Origin: Victivallis lenta
Lineage (GTDB): Bacteria > Verrucomicrobiota > Lentisphaeria > Victivallales > Victivallaceae
Reading direction: 5' to 3'
Assembly: GCF_009695545.1 (NCBI RefSeq)
Contig: NZ_VUNS01000014.1
Location: 1 to 64,000 of the forward strand
DNA: 64,000 bases
Below, in pieces: positions 21,362 through 29,945 of the stretch (position 1 is its first letter; each line of letters opens with the position of its first letter). Below the pieces are notes generated by a model. That model did no database searches and was not told the DNA's origin. It was given only the letters and a program-made list of their open reading frames with translations. The translations under genes were made by a program, and so were the position numbers.

Positions 21362-22879
21362 CTAAGACCGGGGAGTTTCCCCGGCCAGGTAACGCGCGAC
21401 GGTGCGGCGGTCGAGCCCGAGCTGCCCGGCGGCTTTGAGACGGCTGCCGGAGCGGCGGACCGCGACTTTCACATAGAGGCGCATGAGCTCCTCGGCCGTC
21501 AGGCCGCAGCGTCCGAGAGCGTTTTCCAGCTCGGTGCCGCCGCTCTGCTGTGCATCTCCCGGCGTGTAGCAGCCCCGGATTACGAGATTGCGGACGCACT
21601 GCTCGAGTTCGCGTACATTGCCGGGCCACGGGTAAGCGCTGCCGAGATTGCGGACGATCCACTCCATCGCTTCAGGCACGAAGCGTTTCGCTTCCTCCTC
21701 GCCGAGCAGCCGTGCCGCGGTGATGTCGACGAATTTTTCGAGTTCGCCCGGTTCCCCGCCGGTCAGGTCGCGCAACGGAACCGTGCGGATCACGTCGCTG
21801 CACAGCCGGTAATAAAGGTCGTGACGGAACACGCCCTCGCGGCACGCCCCGGCGAGGTCGCGGTTGGTCGCGGCGATGATTTTGCCGGCGAATTCGCGCT
21901 CGGCATTGTCTCCGAGCCGCTGGAAACGGCGGGTCTGGAGCACGCGCAGCAGCTTGACCTGCACTTCGGCGTTGATTTCGCCGATTTCATCGAGCAGGAC
22001 CGCGTCGGAGGGATCGCACGCTTCGAGGTAGCCGATCCGGTCCGCCAGCGCTCCGGTGTAGGCTCCTTTGCGATGGCCGAAGAGTTCCGACTCCAGCATG
22101 GTCTGCGGCAGGGCGGAAAGGTGGACCGGCCGGAAGCAGTCCGGGTAGGCGGTACGGAATTTCCGGCTTTTCGCATCGAACGGAATATACTGCGAAAGCG
22201 CGATCGCCCGGGCGACCAGCTCCTTGCCGGTGCCGGATTCGCCGGTGATCAGCGTGTTGATCTCCTGCATGCGGTCGTAGAGCGCGCGGTGGTAGCGGTA
22301 GATATCCACTGTGAAGAGCGACTGCCAGATTCCGGCGCGCAGCTTGCCGGCTTCGAGCGTGCCGCCGATGATGAAATCGAAGATGTGGTGGAAGGCGCGG
22401 TGGATCTGGAAGTAGATCGCAAATGTCCGCTCCGGGTCGTAGCTGCACCGGAGTCTCCGGCCGGGCCGGGAGAGGAAATGGTCGAAGTCGGCAGCGAACT
22501 TTTCGTAGCAGTCGAAACGGGTCTCCTCCGGATTCCGCAGCATCTGCCCGGTCATCTCCGCGCGGTATTTTTCGAACAGGTGGTAGATGACCACCGGTTC
22601 GGCGATGTCCCGGGCGCGGGCGTCGAGTTCGACACCGGGCGCATCGGCGCGCCGGCGCAGCTCAAGCGCCCAGTGTTCGACGAGCCGGCCGAGCTCGGCG
22701 ACGTCTTCGCGGGTGCCGCGCAATCCGTCGTGCATGTTCCAGACCCGGCGTTCCGGGGCAGGGGGACGGCCGAGGATGATCTCCTCGAGCTCGAGTCGTT
22801 CCGGGGTGAACGGATTCGTATAATTGAGCTTCCCGATCGCCCGCAGCAGCGGCGCTTCGGCTTCGGTGTACAGTTTCAT
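21362..22879 (-). CDS. Sigma-54 dependent transcriptional activator (AAA+ enhancer-binding protein)
   Basis: A 505-residue bacterial enhancer-binding protein. The first 200 residues form an unrecognised N-terminal sensory region with no receiver, GAF or PAS signature. The AAA+ domain follows: Walker A GESGTGKE (about residue 217), the sigma-54 contact loop GAYTGA (usually GAFTGA; Tyr is tolerated in the family), Walker B VLLDEIGEI, and YPWPGNVRELEQ near 425. A C-terminal Fis-type helix-turn-helix (AAGQLGLDRRTVARYL) ends the protein. GAGAGGA upstream supports the start at 22879. It is divergent from the VIT-vWA gene, whose promoter is a perfect sigma-54 site, and two direct repeats lie between them. 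It is therefore very probably the dedicated activator of that operon, and perhaps autoregulated. Confidence 0.9.
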   Translation of the reverse strand: MKLYTEAEAPLLRAIGKLNYTNPFTPERLELEEIILGRPPAPERRVWNMHDGLRGTREDVAELGRLVEHWALELRRRADAPGVELDARARDIAEPVVIYHLFEKYRAEMTGQMLRNPEETRFDCYEKFAADFDHFLSRPGRRLRCSYDPERTFAIYFQIHRAFHHIFDFIIGGTLEAGKLRAGIWQSLFTVDIYRYHRALYDRMQEINTLITGESGTGKELVARAIALSQYIPFDAKSRKFRTAYPDCFRPVHLSALPQTMLESELFGHRKGAYTGALADRIGYLEACDPSDAVLLDEIGEINAEVQVKLLRVLQTRRFQRLGDNAEREFAGKIIAATNRDLAGACREGVFRHDLYYRLCSDVIRTVPLRDLTGGEPGELEKFVDITAARLLGEEEAKRFVPEAMEWIVRNLGSAYPWPGNVRELEQCVRNLVIRGCYTPGDAQQSGGTELENALGRCGLTAEELMRLYVKVAVRRSGSRLKAAGQLGLDRRTVARYLAGETPRS

Positions 22880-22913
22880 ATTCCTCTCCGTGTTTCCGGA
22901 ATACGATAGCATC

Positions 22914-22948
22914 TGTACATGAAATGTCAAGCGTTGTGCATAAAATGT
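22914..22948. promoter_or_regulatory. Two direct repeats 21 bp apart, candidate enhancer sites
   Basis: TGTACATGAAATGT (22914-22927) and TGTGCATAAAATGT (22935-22948) match at 12 of 14 positions and start 21 bp apart, two helical turns. Each contains a small ACAT/ATGT-like dyad. They lie about 85-115 bp upstream of the -24/-12 promoter, a usual distance for sites of a sigma-54 activator, and 35-69 bp upstream of the activator's own start codon. Confidence 0.65.
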
Positions 22949-23030
22949 TTTTCTCCGGATCGATGGCAGGAGAGACGATTCTTTGCCGATTCTTTTGGAT
23001 TCCAGATGGTTATGTGCTTGTCACCATATT

Positions 23031-23046
23031 TGGCACGCCGTTTGCT
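23031..23046 (+). promoter_or_regulatory. Sigma-54 (-24/-12) promoter of the VIT-vWA/rhomboid operon
   Basis: TGGCAC (23031-23036), five bases and TTGCT (23042-23046) match the TGGCAC-N5-TTGCW consensus exactly, with correct GG/GC spacing. The expected start near 23058 is 33 bases before the coding start. Confidence 0.88.
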
Positions 23047-23090
23047 GTTCTGTTGACAAGTTCCCGAAAAACAACAGAAAGGGTTGAACG

Positions 23091-25118
23091 ATGAAACAGA
23101 AATGCAGATGCTTCGGAATGCTCTCGGCGCTGGTCATGACCTGCTCGTCCGCAATGGCGGCAGGAACGCTGACTCCGGCCGGGTCGGGACAGAAGCCCGC
23201 CGAGATCCTGAGCCACGACGTCCGGGTCGTGATCAACAACGGTTTTGCGATGACCGAGGTGACCCAGCGTTTCCGGAATCCGAACGCGGAGACGGTAGAG
23301 GCGGTTTACGCGTTCCCGGTGCCGAGCTCCGCCAGCCTCTCCGAGGTTTCCGTGCAGATCGGCGAGCGCACCATCAATGGTGAAGTTCTGGCGAAGGAGG
23401 AGGCGAAGCAAGTCTACGACGAAGAGAAGGAGAGGGGAAACAGCGCGGCGCTGGCCGGGAAGCAGGCGTTTTACGACTTCCGCTTTTCGGTTGCGAACCT
23501 GAAGCCGCAGGAAGAGGCGCTGGTCCGCTTCGTCTACTATCAGCCGCTTGCGGCCGATACCGGCGTGGTCCGCTATGTCTATCCGCTCGAGGAGGGGAAC
23601 ACGCGGGATGCGGCGGCGGCTGATTTCTGGAGCGGCAGCAGCCGGGTCGAAACGAAGGCCACGCTCCGGATGACCGTCAAATCGGCCTGGCCGCTGACTT
23701 CGGTACGGACGCCGAACCTGCGCCCGCTCTCCGAGAAACTCGCGCTTGCGGACGGCGCCGCCGAGCTCGAATATGAACTCGGCAGCGAACTCGGCCGGGA
23801 CTTCGTTTTTTATTATCAGCTCGCCGAGCTGCCGGGGCGGCTTGAAGTCGTGCCGTACCGCGCTGCCGGAAAACCCGGCACTTTCATGATGGTCCTGACT
23901 CCCGGAACCGACCTGCGGCGGCTCGATTGCGGCGCCGACTACATTTTCGTGCTCGACGTGTCGGGCAGCATGCACGGCGACAAGCTCCGGACGCTCTGCG
24001 ACGGCGTGGCGCAGAGCATCGGCTCGATGCGCGGGAACGACCGGTTCCGCATCGTGACCTTCAACCAGCAGTCGCGGGAAGTGACCCGCGGCTGGGTCGC
24101 CGCTTCGCCGGACGGCATCCGGGAGTGGACGCGCCGCGTCTCCGAGCTCAAGGCGAACGGTTCGACCAATCTCGAGGCCGGTATCCGCACCGCCCTCGGC
24201 GGCATCGACGCGGACCGCGTGACCAGCCTCATACTCGTGACCGACGCAGTGACCAATACCGGCGAAGTCCGGCCGGAAGAATTCGCGAAGCTGATGCGGC
24301 AAAAGGACATCCGCGTCTTCGGGTTCCTGATGGGCAACAGCGCGAACTGGCCGCTGATGCGGACCATCTGCGATGCCTCCGGCGGTTTCTATGCGGGCGT
24401 GTCGAACTCCGACGACATCATCGGGCAGATTGCGCTGGCGAAGGAGAAGGTCATCTACGAGGCGCTGCACGATGTGAAGCTTTCGCTTTCCGGCGTCAAG
24501 ACCTTCGACGTGAACCATGCCGGGGCGAAAAAGCTCTATCGCGGCCGGCAGCTTGTGGCGTTCGGGCGCTATGCGGCGGGCGGCGAGGCGGAGTTCACCA
24601 TGACCGCGAAGATTTCGGGCCGCGAGGAGACCTACCGCTGCCGGGTCCGGCTGCCGGACGTTGATGAGGACAATCCCGAGCTTGAACGGCTCTGGGCGCT
24701 CGATCGCATCGAACTCTTCGAGGATCTGAAGAATTCCGGCGTGCTTCCGGCCGACGAGGCGAAGCCGGTCATCCGCCAGCTCGGGATCGATTATCAGCTG
24801 GTGACCGGCGAAACCTCGATGGCGGTCCTCTCCGACGAGGCGTTCCGGGCGTACGGCATCGAGCGCCGCAACGCCGTGCGCACTGCCGCCGAACACCGGG
24901 CGCAGAGCCGCCGCTCTCAGGAGCCGGTGAAGAATTACCGCGTCGATATTCCGGCCGCGGGGAACCCGCCGCTCGACTGCCGGTCGAACGGCGGGGAAAA
25001 CAACCTCTTCAAGCTCTCCGCGCCGAGACTCGGCGGCGGGGCGATCGCGCCGGTTCCTGCCCTGTTCGTCATCGTGCTCGGGGTTGCCGGCTGTATCGCT
25101 CTTTGCAGCAGGCGGTAA
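23091..25118 (+). CDS. VIT and von Willebrand A domain surface protein with a GlyGly-CTERM-like tail
   Basis: A 675-residue exported protein. Order of parts: signal peptide (1-23, cleavage after AMA), VIT domain (about 35-165, with FRNPNAETVEAVYAFPVP and RTINGEVLAKEEAKQVYDEE), vWA domain (about 283-460) with an intact MIDAS start DVSGS at 289-293 and later LVTDAVTNTGEV, a C-terminal strand-rich region, and a tail made of Gly648-650, a hydrophobic helix and terminal Ser-Arg-Arg. Such Gly-TM-Arg tails are sorting signals cut by rhombosortases. The next gene encodes a rhomboid. VIT-vWA proteins paired with a dedicated sorting enzyme are known (marine proteobacterial sortase targets). The ligand bound by the vWA domain is unknown. 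Confidence 0.87.
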   Translation: MKQKCRCFGMLSALVMTCSSAMAAGTLTPAGSGQKPAEILSHDVRVVINNGFAMTEVTQRFRNPNAETVEAVYAFPVPSSASLSEVSVQIGERTINGEVLAKEEAKQVYDEEKERGNSAALAGKQAFYDFRFSVANLKPQEEALVRFVYYQPLAADTGVVRYVYPLEEGNTRDAAAADFWSGSSRVETKATLRMTVKSAWPLTSVRTPNLRPLSEKLALADGAAELEYELGSELGRDFVFYYQLAELPGRLEVVPYRAAGKPGTFMMVLTPGTDLRRLDCGADYIFVLDVSGSMHGDKLRTLCDGVAQSIGSMRGNDRFRIVTFNQQSREVTRGWVAASPDGIREWTRRVSELKANGSTNLEAGIRTALGGIDADRVTSLILVTDAVTNTGEVRPEEFAKLMRQKDIRVFGFLMGNSANWPLMRTICDASGGFYAGVSNSDDIIGQIALAKEKVIYEALHDVKLSLSGVKTFDVNHAGAKKLYRGRQLVAFGRYAAGGEAEFTMTAKISGREETYRCRVRLPDVDEDNPELERLWALDRIELFEDLKNSGVLPADEAKPVIRQLGIDYQLVTGETSMAVLSDEAFRAYGIERRNAVRTAAEHRAQSRRSQEPVKNYRVDIPAAGNPPLDCRSNGGENNLFKLSAPRLGGGAIAPVPALFVIVLGVAGCIALCSRR

Positions 25119-25145: not shown

Positions 25146-26171
25146 ATGAAAAAGTCGATTGTCGAGCTCTTCACTTACGCCGCTGCGGCTTCGTTTTTCG
25201 CCTTGCCGCCTTACGGACTGGCGGCACACTGGTACGGGGTCGTACTGCTGGCGGTCTCCGTGCTCCCCGCGGTCGGCATGTCGCTGCTGCTGACGAAGTT
25301 CTGCCGCTCCGGAATCCCGGCGGCAGTGCGTTTTGCCCCGGTCGCGGCCGGCTGGTTCGCGCTCGCTTTCGCAAACCGGCATCTGGCCGGCAGCGGAACC
25401 GCCTCCGGAGCGTTCGGGCTGACGGTTGCGCCGCTTGCCGTGGCGGTCACCGTCATGCCGGCGGCCTGCTATGCGCTCTACTGGCTGGAACGGAACGAGG
25501 CGCTGGCGAACCGGATCGTCAATGCGGCGCGCCTGCCGCTCGCGGCGGTTGCGCTGATGGCGCTCGTCATGGCGTTTCCGTCGATCGGCACGGCCATGAT
25601 GTTCCGTCCGGGGGCCGCGCTGTTCCCCGGGGGATGGCGGATGCTCGGCTGTCACTTCGTTCACTTCGGCTGGGACCATTTCGCCTGGGACGGCGCGGTG
25701 GTGCTGGCGGTCGGGACGATGCTCGCCGTCCGGCGCGGCGAACTTTTCTTCTGCCGGCTTTTTCTCGCTTCGCTGCTCTGGTGCGGCGCCGGAGTCGCCG
25801 TCTTCGGGCGCGGCTACGACCTCTATTGCGGCTCCTCCGGAATCGGCTGCGCGCTGGCGGCCGCACTCGCGGCTGACTTCATCCGCTCCGGCGGAGGAAC
25901 GCTGCGTCGGGCATCGGCCGCTGTCCTGGCCGGAATCGCCGGGAAGGCGGTTTTCGAGCTGGCGTCCGGCGAGACGCTGTTTGTTCCGGGGACGGAATTC
26001 GAGCCGGCCGCCGCCGCTCACCTGGCCGGTATGCTCGCCGGAGTCTGGCATGCGCTGCCGCGCCGCAAACTGCGGATCGTCCGCAGATATCTGGCCGCGC
26101 GCCTCCGGGGCTTGAAAAAGGGGGATTCCGGTGATATACTTCATGAATTGAACAAGATATGGAGTTTGTGA
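25146..26171 (+). CDS. Rhomboid family intramembrane serine protease (rhombosortase-like)
   Basis: A 341-residue polytopic membrane protein with about eight hydrophobic segments. Rhomboid signatures are in the second half: HFVHFGWDHF (His170, His173, His178) in the second core helix, the nucleophile motif GSSG (Ser231) and HLAGMLAG with the catalytic His292. The usual Asn of the HxxxxHxxxN pattern is Asp182, and the N-terminal 145 residues add extra helices. It follows the VIT-vWA gene by 27 bases with a GGAGG site. Its probable substrate is that protein's GlyGly-like tail. Plain housekeeping rhomboid function is the alternative. Confidence 0.78.
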   Translation: MKKSIVELFTYAAAASFFALPPYGLAAHWYGVVLLAVSVLPAVGMSLLLTKFCRSGIPAAVRFAPVAAGWFALAFANRHLAGSGTASGAFGLTVAPLAVAVTVMPAACYALYWLERNEALANRIVNAARLPLAAVALMALVMAFPSIGTAMMFRPGAALFPGGWRMLGCHFVHFGWDHFAWDGAVVLAVGTMLAVRRGELFFCRLFLASLLWCGAGVAVFGRGYDLYCGSSGIGCALAAALAADFIRSGGGTLRRASAAVLAGIAGKAVFELASGETLFVPGTEFEPAAAAHLAGMLAGVWHALPRRKLRIVRRYLAARLRGLKKGDSGDILHELNKIWSL

Positions 26172-26945: not shown

Positions 26946-26968
26946 CGATAACCATTATCGTTTTTTTT
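26946..26968 (+). terminator. Short hairpin with T-run between the lyxose isomerase and pflB genes
   Basis: CGATAA-CCA-TTATCG (26946-26960) is followed by eight T residues (26961-26968). It probably ends the transcript of the upstream VIT-vWA/rhomboid/isomerase operon. Because it lies at the predicted start of pflB transcription, it is unlikely to attenuate pflB. Confidence 0.5.
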
Positions 26969-26987
26969 GAGAGAGGCGGATTTCTTC

Positions 26988-29207
26988 ATGGATTTCAAGA
27001 ACGGCGCATGGACTGCCGAAGTCAATGTCAGAGATTTTATTCAGAACAACTACACTCCGTACGACGGCGACCGGGATTTCCTTGCGCCGCCGACGGAGCG
27101 GACGCTCGAACTGTGGCGTATTCTGTCGGAGCGCATGAAGCTGGAACGCGAGCGCAACGGCGTTTACGACATCGACGAGAAGACCATTTCGACCATCACC
27201 TCGCACGAGGCCGGCTACATCGACCGGGAGCTTGAGACGATCGTCGGGCTTCAGACCGATGCTCCGCTGAAGCGGGCGATCATGCCGTTCGGCGGCTTCC
27301 GGCTCATCCACACCGAGCTCGAAGCTTACGGGCGGAAGATGGATCCGGCCGTCGAACATGTTTTCGAATACCGCAAGACCCACAACGACGGCGTGTTCGA
27401 CGTCTACACCGACGAGATGAAGAAGGTGCGCCACGCCGGCGTCATCACCGGGCTGCCGGACAACTACGGGCGCGGCCGGATCATCGGCGACTACCGCCGC
27501 GTGCCGCTCTACGGCGTCGATTTCCTGATCGAAGCGAAGAAGCAGGCGAAGCGCGAGGCGGTCGCCGACGTGATGGATTCGGATATGATCCGCAAGCGCG
27601 AGGAGATCGCCGAGCAGATCAAGGCGCTCGGCGAGCTCAAGGCGATGGCCGCCAAATACGGCTTCGATATCTCGCGCCCGGCGCAGGATACGAAAGAGGC
27701 GATCCAGTGGCTCTACTTCGGCTATCTGGCCGCGGTCAAGGAGCAGAACGGCGCGGCGATGTCGATCGGCCGCATCTCGACTTTTCTCGACTGTTACGCC
27801 GAGCGCGACCTGGCGGGCGGGAAATATACGGAAGAGGAGATTCAGGAGTTCGTCGACCACTTCATCATGAAGCTGCGGATCGTCCGTTTCCTGCGGACTC
27901 CGGCTTATGACGAGCTGTTCAGCGGCGACCCGACCTGGGTGACCGAGTCGGTCGGCGGCATGTCGCTCGACGGGCGGCACATGGTCACGAAGATGAGCTA
28001 CCGCTTCCTGCACACGCTCGTGAACCTCGGTCCCGCGCCGGAACCGAACCTGACCGTGCTGTGGAGCGTGAAACTGCCGGAGAATTTCAAGAAGTTCTGC
28101 GCCGACATTTCGATCGGGACTTCGTCGATCCAGTACGAGAACGACGACCTGATGCGGGTCAAGTTCGGCGACGACTACGGCATCGCCTGCTGCGTCTCGG
28201 CCATGCGGATCGGCAAGCAGATGCAGTTCTTCGGCGCGCGCTGCAACCTTGCGAAGGCGCTGCTTTACGCGATCAACGGCGGCCGTGACGTGAAGTGTAA
28301 CAACGAGCAGATCGGCCCGGCGATTCCGTTCCTCGGCGGCGGCGAGTATATCGACTACGACGAGGTCATGCGGAATTTCGAGGAGATCACCGACTGGCTT
28401 GCAAAGCTCTATATCGATACGCTGAACATCATCCACTACATGCACGACAAGTACTGCTATGAGCGGATTGAAATGGCGCTGCACGACGAAGATATCGTCC
28501 GTACGATGGCCGGCGGCATCGCCGGGCTCTCGGTGCTGGCGGACAGCTTTTCGGCGATCCGGTACGCGAAGGTCAGGCCGGTGCTGAACGATGCCGGCCT
28601 GGTCTGCGACTTCATCACCGAGGGGGATTTCCCGAAGTTCGGCAACGACGACGAGCGGGTCGACCGGATCGCGGTGGATATCGTCAAGTCGTTCGAACAG
28701 AAGCTGGCGCGGCACAAGGCGTACCGCAATGCGAAGCCGACCATGTCGATCCTGACCATCACCAGCAACGTCATGTACGGCAAGAAGACCGCTTCGACGC
28801 CGGACGGGCGCAAAGCCGGCGAGCCGTTCGCGCCGGGCGCGAATCCGATGCACGGCCGCGACGTGAACGGCGCGGTCGCCTCCCTGAAGTCGGTCGCCAA
28901 GCTGCCGTACGACTATGCGGAGGACGGAATCAGCTACACTTTCTCGATCGTGCCGGATTCGCTCGGCCGGACGCCGGAGGAGAAGCGGTCGAACCTGATC
29001 TCTCTGCTCGACGGCTACTTCTCGGAGCATGGCCATCACCTGAACGTGAACGTGCTGCAGCGCGAGATGCTGCTTGATGCGATGGAGCACCCCGAAAAGT
29101 ATCCGCAGCTTACGATCCGGGTTTCCGGCTACGCCGTGAACTTCATCCGCCTGACCCGCGAGCAGCAGCTCGACGTGGTCAACCGGACGTTCCACAGCCG
29201 GTTCTGA
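26988..29207 (+). CDS. pflB: Pyruvate formate-lyase (formate C-acetyltransferase)
   Basis: A 739-residue glycyl radical enzyme that cleaves pyruvate with CoA to formate and acetyl-CoA in anaerobic fermentation. It has the PflB start ([18 protein letters not shown]), [10 protein letters not shown], the adjacent catalytic cysteines in GIACCVSAM (about residues 403-411) and the C-terminal radical loop RVSGYAVNF (about 708-716). Length and order match true PflB rather than diol dehydratase-type relatives. The start at 26988 follows AGAGAGGCGG; an in-frame Met seven codons earlier lies within the hairpin/T-run. The activase gene follows three bases after the stop. It supports an anaerobic lifestyle. 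Confidence 0.95.
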
Positions 29208-29210
29208 GCG

Positions 29211-29945
29211 ATGGCGGAGGTCTCCGGCAGGATTCACTCGGTGGAGAGTTTCGGGACGCTGGACGGCCCCGGCGTCCGCTACGTCGTTTTCCTGCAGGGG
29301 TGTCCGCTGCGCTGCCTCTACTGCCACAACCCGGATACCTGGGCGACCGGCGGCGGAACGGAGACGACGGTGCCGGAGCTGATGCGCCGGATCGAATCGT
29401 GCCGGAATTTCATCCGTTCGGGGGGCGTGACGCTTTCGGGCGGCGAACCTCTGATGCAGCCGGATTTTTCCCGCGCGCTTCTGGAGAGCTGCCGCGAGGC
29501 GGGGTTCCACACGGCGCTCGATACGGCGGGCTCCTTTCCGCTTGCCCGCTCCCGCGCGGTGATCGATGCGGCGGATCTGGTGCTGCTCGACATCAAGGCG
29601 CTCGACCCGGAGCTCTGCGTGAGGCTGACCGGCAGAGACGGCGGCAATACGCTTGCGACGCTGGATTGGTGCGAGGAGAGCGGCAAGCCGGTCTGGATTC
29701 GGCATGTGCTGGTGCCGGGCCTGACGCTGGACCGTGCGAGACTCGAAGCGCTCGCCGCTTATCTGGAGCCGTACCGCTGCATCGGGAAGGTGGAGCTTCT
29801 GCCGTTTCACAAGATGGCGGATTTCAAGTGGAAGGCGCTCGGCCTGGAAAACCGCCTGGCCGACACGCCGGAGCCGGAGGCGGCGGCGCTGCGGGAAGCC
29901 GAATCCCTGTTTTCCGGCAGAAGCCGGGACTGCCGACAGCCGTAA
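29211..29945 (+). CDS. pflA: Pyruvate formate-lyase activating enzyme (radical SAM)
   Basis: A 244-residue radical SAM enzyme that installs the glycyl radical on PflB. It has GRIHSVESFGTLDGPGVRYVVFLQGCP-type start with the cluster motif CPLRCLYC (Cys-x3-Cys-x2-Cys, about residues 31-38), SGGVTLSGGEPLMQ (SAM-binding GGE), and a C-terminal part including VPGLT and LLPFHKMADFKW. There are no extra ferredoxin cysteines, as expected for PflA rather than other GRE activases. It begins three bases after pflB. Confidence 0.94.
   Translation: MAEVSGRIHSVESFGTLDGPGVRYVVFLQGCPLRCLYCHNPDTWATGGGTETTVPELMRRIESCRNFIRSGGVTLSGGEPLMQPDFSRALLESCREAGFHTALDTAGSFPLARSRAVIDAADLVLLDIKALDPELCVRLTGRDGGNTLATLDWCEESGKPVWIRHVLVPGLTLDRARLEALAAYLEPYRCIGKVELLPFHKMADFKWKALGLENRLADTPEPEAAALREAESLFSGRSRDCRQP

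Follow-up and report, generated by a model that had tools for sequence, protein, structure and literature searches.

A predicted, evolutionarily conserved sigma-54 switch with paired palindromic operators ahead of a VIT-VWA protein and a rhombosortase-like protease in Victivallis lenta

An intergenic region of Victivallis lenta, positions 22914-23046 of the 64,000-nucleotide stretch of contig NZ_VUNS01000014.1 that we analysed (the window), had been described in an initial annotation as a complete sigma-54 control region made up of two 14-mer direct repeats and a -24/-12 promoter. The question raised by this locus is whether these elements form a genuine switch and, if so, which protein acts on it and which genes it serves. 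The 14-mers, TGTACATGAAATGT at 22914-22927 and TGTGCATAAAATGT at 22935-22948, were exact to the base with a start-to-start distance of 21 bp, and the exact -24/-12 element TGGCACGCCGTTTGCT (TGGCAC/TTGCT) was present on the plus strand at 23031-23046, with a predicted transcription start near 23056-23058. The repeats lie 35-69 bp ahead of the neighbouring minus-strand gene (21362-22879, 505 aa), given its ATG at 22879. The product of this gene really is a sigma-54 AAA+ activator (Pfam Sigma54_activat), and the 5.5-Mb host genome encodes a full RpoN, which would presumably transcribe the operon. On the other side of the region, the promoter faces genes for a VIT-VWA protein (23091-25118, plus strand, 675 aa) and a rhombosortase-like rhomboid protease (25146-26171, plus strand, 341 aa), and a D-lyxose isomerase gene follows them. 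Past all three of these genes, at 26967-29945, stand genes for a pyruvate formate-lyase (TIGR01255) and an activase (TIGR02493); a pyruvate formate-lyase gene is likewise next in the sister species G002. The description of the repeats had to be amended in one respect: both are there, but they are not merely direct, as each lies within an imperfect 17-bp palindrome, TGTACATnnAATGTACA in its general form, as distant homologues revealed. Operator 1, TGTACATGAAATGTCAA (22914-22930), includes the first 14-mer and operator 2, TGTGCATAAAATGTTTT (22935-22951), 21 bp from operator 1, includes the second. Relative to TGGCACGCCGTTTGCT, the palindromes start at -117 and -96 bp.

We asked how far such an arrangement could be due to chance, that is, to an AT-rich intergenic repeat combined with a fortuitous -24/-12 match. 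The strict -24/-12 pattern occurred once in the window (0.02 expected) and nine times in the genome, compared with five times for a reversed control. The loose pattern was no commoner than its reversed control (78 versus 76), which is what a fortuitous match would predict; the genome-wide scan was therefore dropped as evidence by itself. Since the loose pattern showed no excess, a lone match is weak evidence and the case must rest on the repeats and their conservation. The repeats were rare: allowing at most one mismatch, TGTNCATNAAATGT occurred twice in the 64-kb window, both times in this region, and none of 100 shuffles gave two occurrences; exact copies of the 14-mer numbered three in the whole genome, two of them at this locus. 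For phylogenetic footprinting we used the 10 of 61 genomes with a full-length activator, namely that of the window and nine relatives. One of these (G031) has the activator gene behind a same-direction MFS-type transporter gene and no divergent neighbour. In all nine loci with a divergent gene (window included) the element YGGCAY-N5-NTGCT was kept at a similar distance, and operator pairs 21-23 bp apart were readable in at least eight of the nine, with G060 showing a tandem array in 11-bp steps. When the window was compared with two sister Victivallis species, the intergenic DNA had drifted and the islands of identity were the two operators and the -24/-12 promoter. Conservation upstream of orthologous activators had been named beforehand as a test of the proposal, and operators and promoter were indeed kept, even with a different downstream gene. 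In a wider set of 80 upstream regions, strict sigma-54 sites faced the divergent gene in 32, compared with none on the other strand and a mean of 0.6 in shuffles. The predicted structure of the leader RNA was no stronger than that of shuffles (z -1.0). Conservation, spacing and the rarity of the repeats make a chance origin scarcely credible, footprinting having already refuted it. As judged from these comparisons, the region 22914-23046 is a real, evolutionarily conserved sigma-54 switch.

The protein encoded next to the operators has the features of a sigma-54-dependent enhancer-binding protein (bEBP), the class to which its motifs assign it. Its AAA+ domain (Sigma54_activat, E 3.7e-44) contains the Walker A motif GESGTGKE, the sequence LLDEIGE and a GAYTGA loop, which reads GAFTGA in several orthologues (alignment of 10), and its profile aligns to NtrC, ZraR and PspF structures. 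The C-terminus had no helix-turn-helix match in Pfam; its profile aligns to ZraR (1ojl) through position 497, and a candidate Fis-like helix-turn-helix stands at the motif LGLDRRTV, in which LDRRT is invariant among orthologues. The protein is regarded as a one-component regulator because no receiver domain was found. The N-terminal domain (about residues 1-205) had no match in Pfam, NCBIfam or PDB sequences. It was modelled as all helical (pLDDT 84, pTM 0.83), and fold searches with this model returned hits that were not interpretable (best Foldseek E 2.1; best VIA Z 4.4, to 14-3-3 and helical repeats), a result that does not show the fold to be new. The activator would act in the manner of PspF but is not a PspF (phageshock_pspF model, 139.6 bits versus a cut-off of 443.55), and it carries the N-domain that PspF lacks. 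The PrsR model TIGR02915 reached 159 bits versus a cut-off of 502.6 and covered the AAA+ and C-terminal parts only.

The operators were followed beyond the Lentisphaerota with a matrix built from only six sites of three Victivallis species. This matrix was applied to 59 loci from outside the Lentisphaerota that had been fetched by the activator N-domain alone; 45/59 exceeded the 95% shuffle threshold and 27/59 the 99% threshold, compared with 1/59 for a control piece 270-400 nt away, although the 59 loci are not all independent because they are related to one another. The spacings between sites clustered at 11, 21 and 22 bp, corresponding to one and two helical turns. Across several phyla the operator motif accompanies the activator gene irrespective of the gene on the other side, and the activator family with this one operator was found in Lentisphaerota, Planctomycetota, Acidobacteriota, Myxococcota, Methylomirabilota and others.

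The extent of the regulon was determined by genome pattern searches and inspection of the fetched regions. Only two of the 78 loose sigma-54 sites in the genome were accompanied by an operator pair. The first was the promoter described here (pair score 35.6, start -117, spacing 21) and the second was located at G000:C10:26749 (pair score 19.5, start -116, spacing 21), while the next best site scored 8.7. The single operators of the second target scored 11.3 and 8.2, lower than the 20.7 and 14.9 obtained here. Other exact or near 14-mer sites (on C32, C17, C42 and others) were rejected as targets, being lone sites with no partner or sigma-54 element nearby. The initial annotation had proposed a genome-wide scan to see whether the regulon is confined to this operon; the scan yielded two paired promoters. 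The second target encodes a protein of 302 aa (PF13444, 107 bits) whose best families are the OlsB ornithine-lipid N-acyltransferases; we call it OlsB-like because OlsB was the best of all families yet scored below its cut-off (NCBIfam OlsB, 145.9 versus 320 bits). The OlsB-like gene is unlinked to the window locus and has no activator gene at its site. Between it and a prepilin-like gene of the same genome we noticed a short tandem repeat (L178:5997-6627; peptide unit like RPCPTLCVGLVSKDHARHCVSGSSQKTMPDT in one frame). Orthologues of the OlsB-like gene in the sister species G003 and in V. vadensis (G007) were also preceded by operator(s) and promoter, and the combination was absent before 23 of 23 homologues from relatives lacking the activator, so that the trans site was restricted to activator-bearing genomes (3/7 versus 0/23, p 0.009). 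This restriction also bears on the idea that the repeats are the site of an unrelated transcription factor and that the activator binds elsewhere. Palindromes of the TGTACA type suit many factors, but the tracking of the activator gene by the motif over several phyla, regardless of the other neighbour, and the confinement of the trans site to genomes that carry the activator leave this idea very improbable. Probably, the neighbouring regulator binds both sites and switches on the surface protein, its presumed trimming protease and, elsewhere in the genome, the membrane-lipid enzyme.

It had also been proposed that the same sites may autoregulate the activator gene. Operator 1 sits mostly within the 16-bp spacer of a candidate sigma-70 promoter facing that gene (22903-22930, minus strand; -35 TTGACA at 22930-22925, -10 TATCGT at 22908-22903). 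The -10 hexamer of the window is mediocre, and the overlap of operator and sigma-70 promoter is missing in some relatives; in three sister Victivallis genomes the same place holds the better matched TTGACA-16/17-TATAGT or TATATT. The half-palindrome that holds this -35 hexamer, at the end of operator 1, is often TGTACA in distant phyla and is TTGACA in Victivallis, as if this half-site had been tuned as a -35 element. Because operator 1 overlaps the likely sigma-70 promoter, the autoregulation proposal gains support, and the anatomy suggests that the activator likely represses its own gene via operator 1. The overlap would equally suit operators that mainly repress the activator gene, with the sigma-54 promoter driven by another activator or from solution, as would the position of the operator 0-30 bp from the activator start codon in many distant loci and the missing strict sigma-54 match in 48 of the 80 upstream regions. 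It would then be difficult to explain why the same pair recurs 116 bp ahead of the OlsB-like promoter, an unlinked site with no activator gene to repress, why the tandem sites have the separation of about two helical turns that is typical of enhancers and why the sigma-54 element holds its position in 9/9 near loci. We therefore consider a mainly repressive role unlikely and prefer activation from the paired operators, with autorepression as a likely further effect.

The two products of the operon have the appearance of a dedicated sorting pair. The VIT-VWA protein (Pfam VIT, E 5.7e-30; VWA_3, E 1.8e-14) has a signal peptide-like start and ends in a sorting-type tail (residues 645-675), consisting of PRLGGGA, a hydrophobic stretch and basic residues, that is conserved in homologues. 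In a model search of the genome this tail gave no match to GlyGly-CTERM (TIGR03501), and TIGR03788 scored 203.1 bits over residues 186-596, far below its cut-off of 551.65. The product of 25146-26171 (Pfam Rhomboid, E 5.9e-12) carries the catalytic-type motifs CGSSG and AAHLAG; with the domain, the GxSG serine and the histidine, it is a predicted rhomboid protease. We term it rhombosortase-like because it was the best match of the genome to the rhombosortase model TIGR03902 and still scored below the cut-off (66.1-67.9 versus 84 bits). The rhomboid would process the tail of the VIT-VWA protein. The protease of the window is a fusion, whose N-terminal membrane part (about residues 2-124) exists alone in sister species (L089:6986-7393; L090; L091:7324-7713). 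No other divergent gene product accompanies this part in G003 and G002, where rhomboid domain and VIT-VWA are absent; in V. vadensis, which likewise lacks both, it comes after a tiny protein. In V. vadensis (L091, reverse strand) and Lentisphaerae WC36 (L096), the sigma-54 promoter is directly followed by genes for tiny proteins (about 65-91 aa) that begin like a signal peptide and carry a membrane helix at the C-terminus; these could be vestiges of the VIT-VWA protein or minimal versions of it.

A VIT-VWA neighbour was ruled out as the fixed output of the switch, as it is missing in the sister species G002, G003 and G007; the output is not fixed because the neighbouring operon in sister Victivallis is not VIT-VWA. 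Besides the window, 21 of the 80 fetched loci had VIT-VWA as the divergent gene, and a rhomboid almost always accompanied it; these loci spanned Lentisphaerota, Planctomycetota, Hydrogenedentota and Myxococcota. All of these VIT-VWA proteins have a C-terminal glycine-rich motif (often GGGAIDP) followed by a hydrophobic stretch and basic residues. Other loci had as their divergent gene an acyl-ACP-phospholipid O-acyltransferase of the LplT-Aas type (Acidobacteriota and others), PspA/IM30 (L121, Myxococcota), a DUF2157 membrane protein or a GNAT/aminotransferase protein (Planctomycetota). In three Victivallaceae/Victivallales (L111, L112, L114; also L095) the operator and sigma-54 promoter preceded genes for a ferredoxin and a 2-oxoacid:ferredoxin oxidoreductase-like protein, an output unlike the envelope theme. 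A different protein, of 306 aa, is encoded at a Nitrospinota locus (L136:3-1423), adjoining a rhomboid gene and the same activator family; its C-terminus consists of GGGS followed by hydrophobic and then basic residues, and the locus may hold a further dedicated sorting pair. When 81 activators were placed on a tree, at least nine changes of the VIT-VWA output were counted; the regulator and its operator persist while the output is swapped. A good many outputs are tied to the envelope or to envelope lipids, and this suggests, without showing, a shared envelope-related signal.

The reading that we favour, with a probability of roughly 85%, is that an activator acting at paired operators drives both the sigma-54 operon and the OlsB-like promoter, with an N-domain that probably senses the envelope and with likely negative autoregulation. 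The one-component activator (21362-22879) would occupy both palindromes (22914-22951) and, by looping out some 100 bp of DNA, contact sigma-54 RNA polymerase at 23031-23046, leading to expression of the dedicated pair of VIT-VWA protein and rhombosortase-like processing protease. It would also drive the identically laid-out promoter of the OlsB-like N-acyltransferase gene. The cytoplasmic all-helical N-domain probably responds to a state of the envelope or of envelope lipids by gating the ATPase, and binding at operator 1 would cover the activator's own sigma-70 promoter.

The layout matches a known one-component sigma-54 activator type, with PspF-like anatomy. In the PspF/pspA system of Escherichia coli, too, activator gene and sigma-54 operon diverge, and a pair of upstream sites lies in between. 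The psp upstream sites also overlap the sigma-70 promoter of the PspF gene, giving negative autoregulation. PspF differs in having no N-terminal regulatory domain and in being held by PspA, whereas the activator described here carries an N-domain of 205 aa, with VIT-VWA/rhombosortase and the OlsB-like gene as outputs. The inhibition of PspF by PspA is cited in PMC4641369. The same paper describes, in Desulfovibrio vulgaris, six one-component enhancer-binding proteins whose genes diverge from sigma-54 promoters; the anatomy is the same as here, the regulators and operons are other ones, and the passages considered name neither VIT-VWA nor rhombosortase. Dedicated GlyGly-CTERM/rhombosortase pairs, with one tagged target beside its rhombosortase and VIT-VWA types among the tagged families, have been reported (PMC3237569). 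The same pairing is seen here, but both protein models score below their curated cut-offs. These pairs and the tailed VIT-VWA proteins were described without transcriptional control (PMC3237569), and no sigma-54 control of a rhombosortase/target pair was found in the searched literature. The marine proteobacterial sortase target TIGR03788, too, is of the VIT-VWA type and has its own sorting enzyme, but that system uses LPXTG and a sortase in place of a GGGA tail and a rhomboid. PrsR, the PEP-CTERM-box response regulator, is likewise a sigma-54 activator tied to protein sorting, with a receiver domain that was not found here.

The activator family and its operator appear undescribed in the searched literature, and what is new is a cross-phylum family with an all-helical N-domain, its operator and exchangeable, mostly envelope-related outputs. 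A broader and tentative proposal, to which we would give somewhat poorer than even odds, is that these proteins form a hitherto undescribed family, spread across phyla, of cytosolic sensors for envelope or lipid stress, in which a new helical sensor domain joined to a sigma-54 ATPase acts at the one conserved operator TGTACATnnAATGTACA on membrane-repair outputs swapped between lineages (VIT-VWA/rhombosortase, OlsB-like, LplT-Aas-type, PspA). If true, the response would resemble Psp but lack gating by PspA. The searched literature offered no transcriptional control for dedicated pairs of a surface protein and its sorting enzyme; for one such pair, a predicted regulator, operator and two-promoter regulon can now be tested, and a common envelope-related signal could be sought in the culturable Victivallis vadensis DSM 14823.
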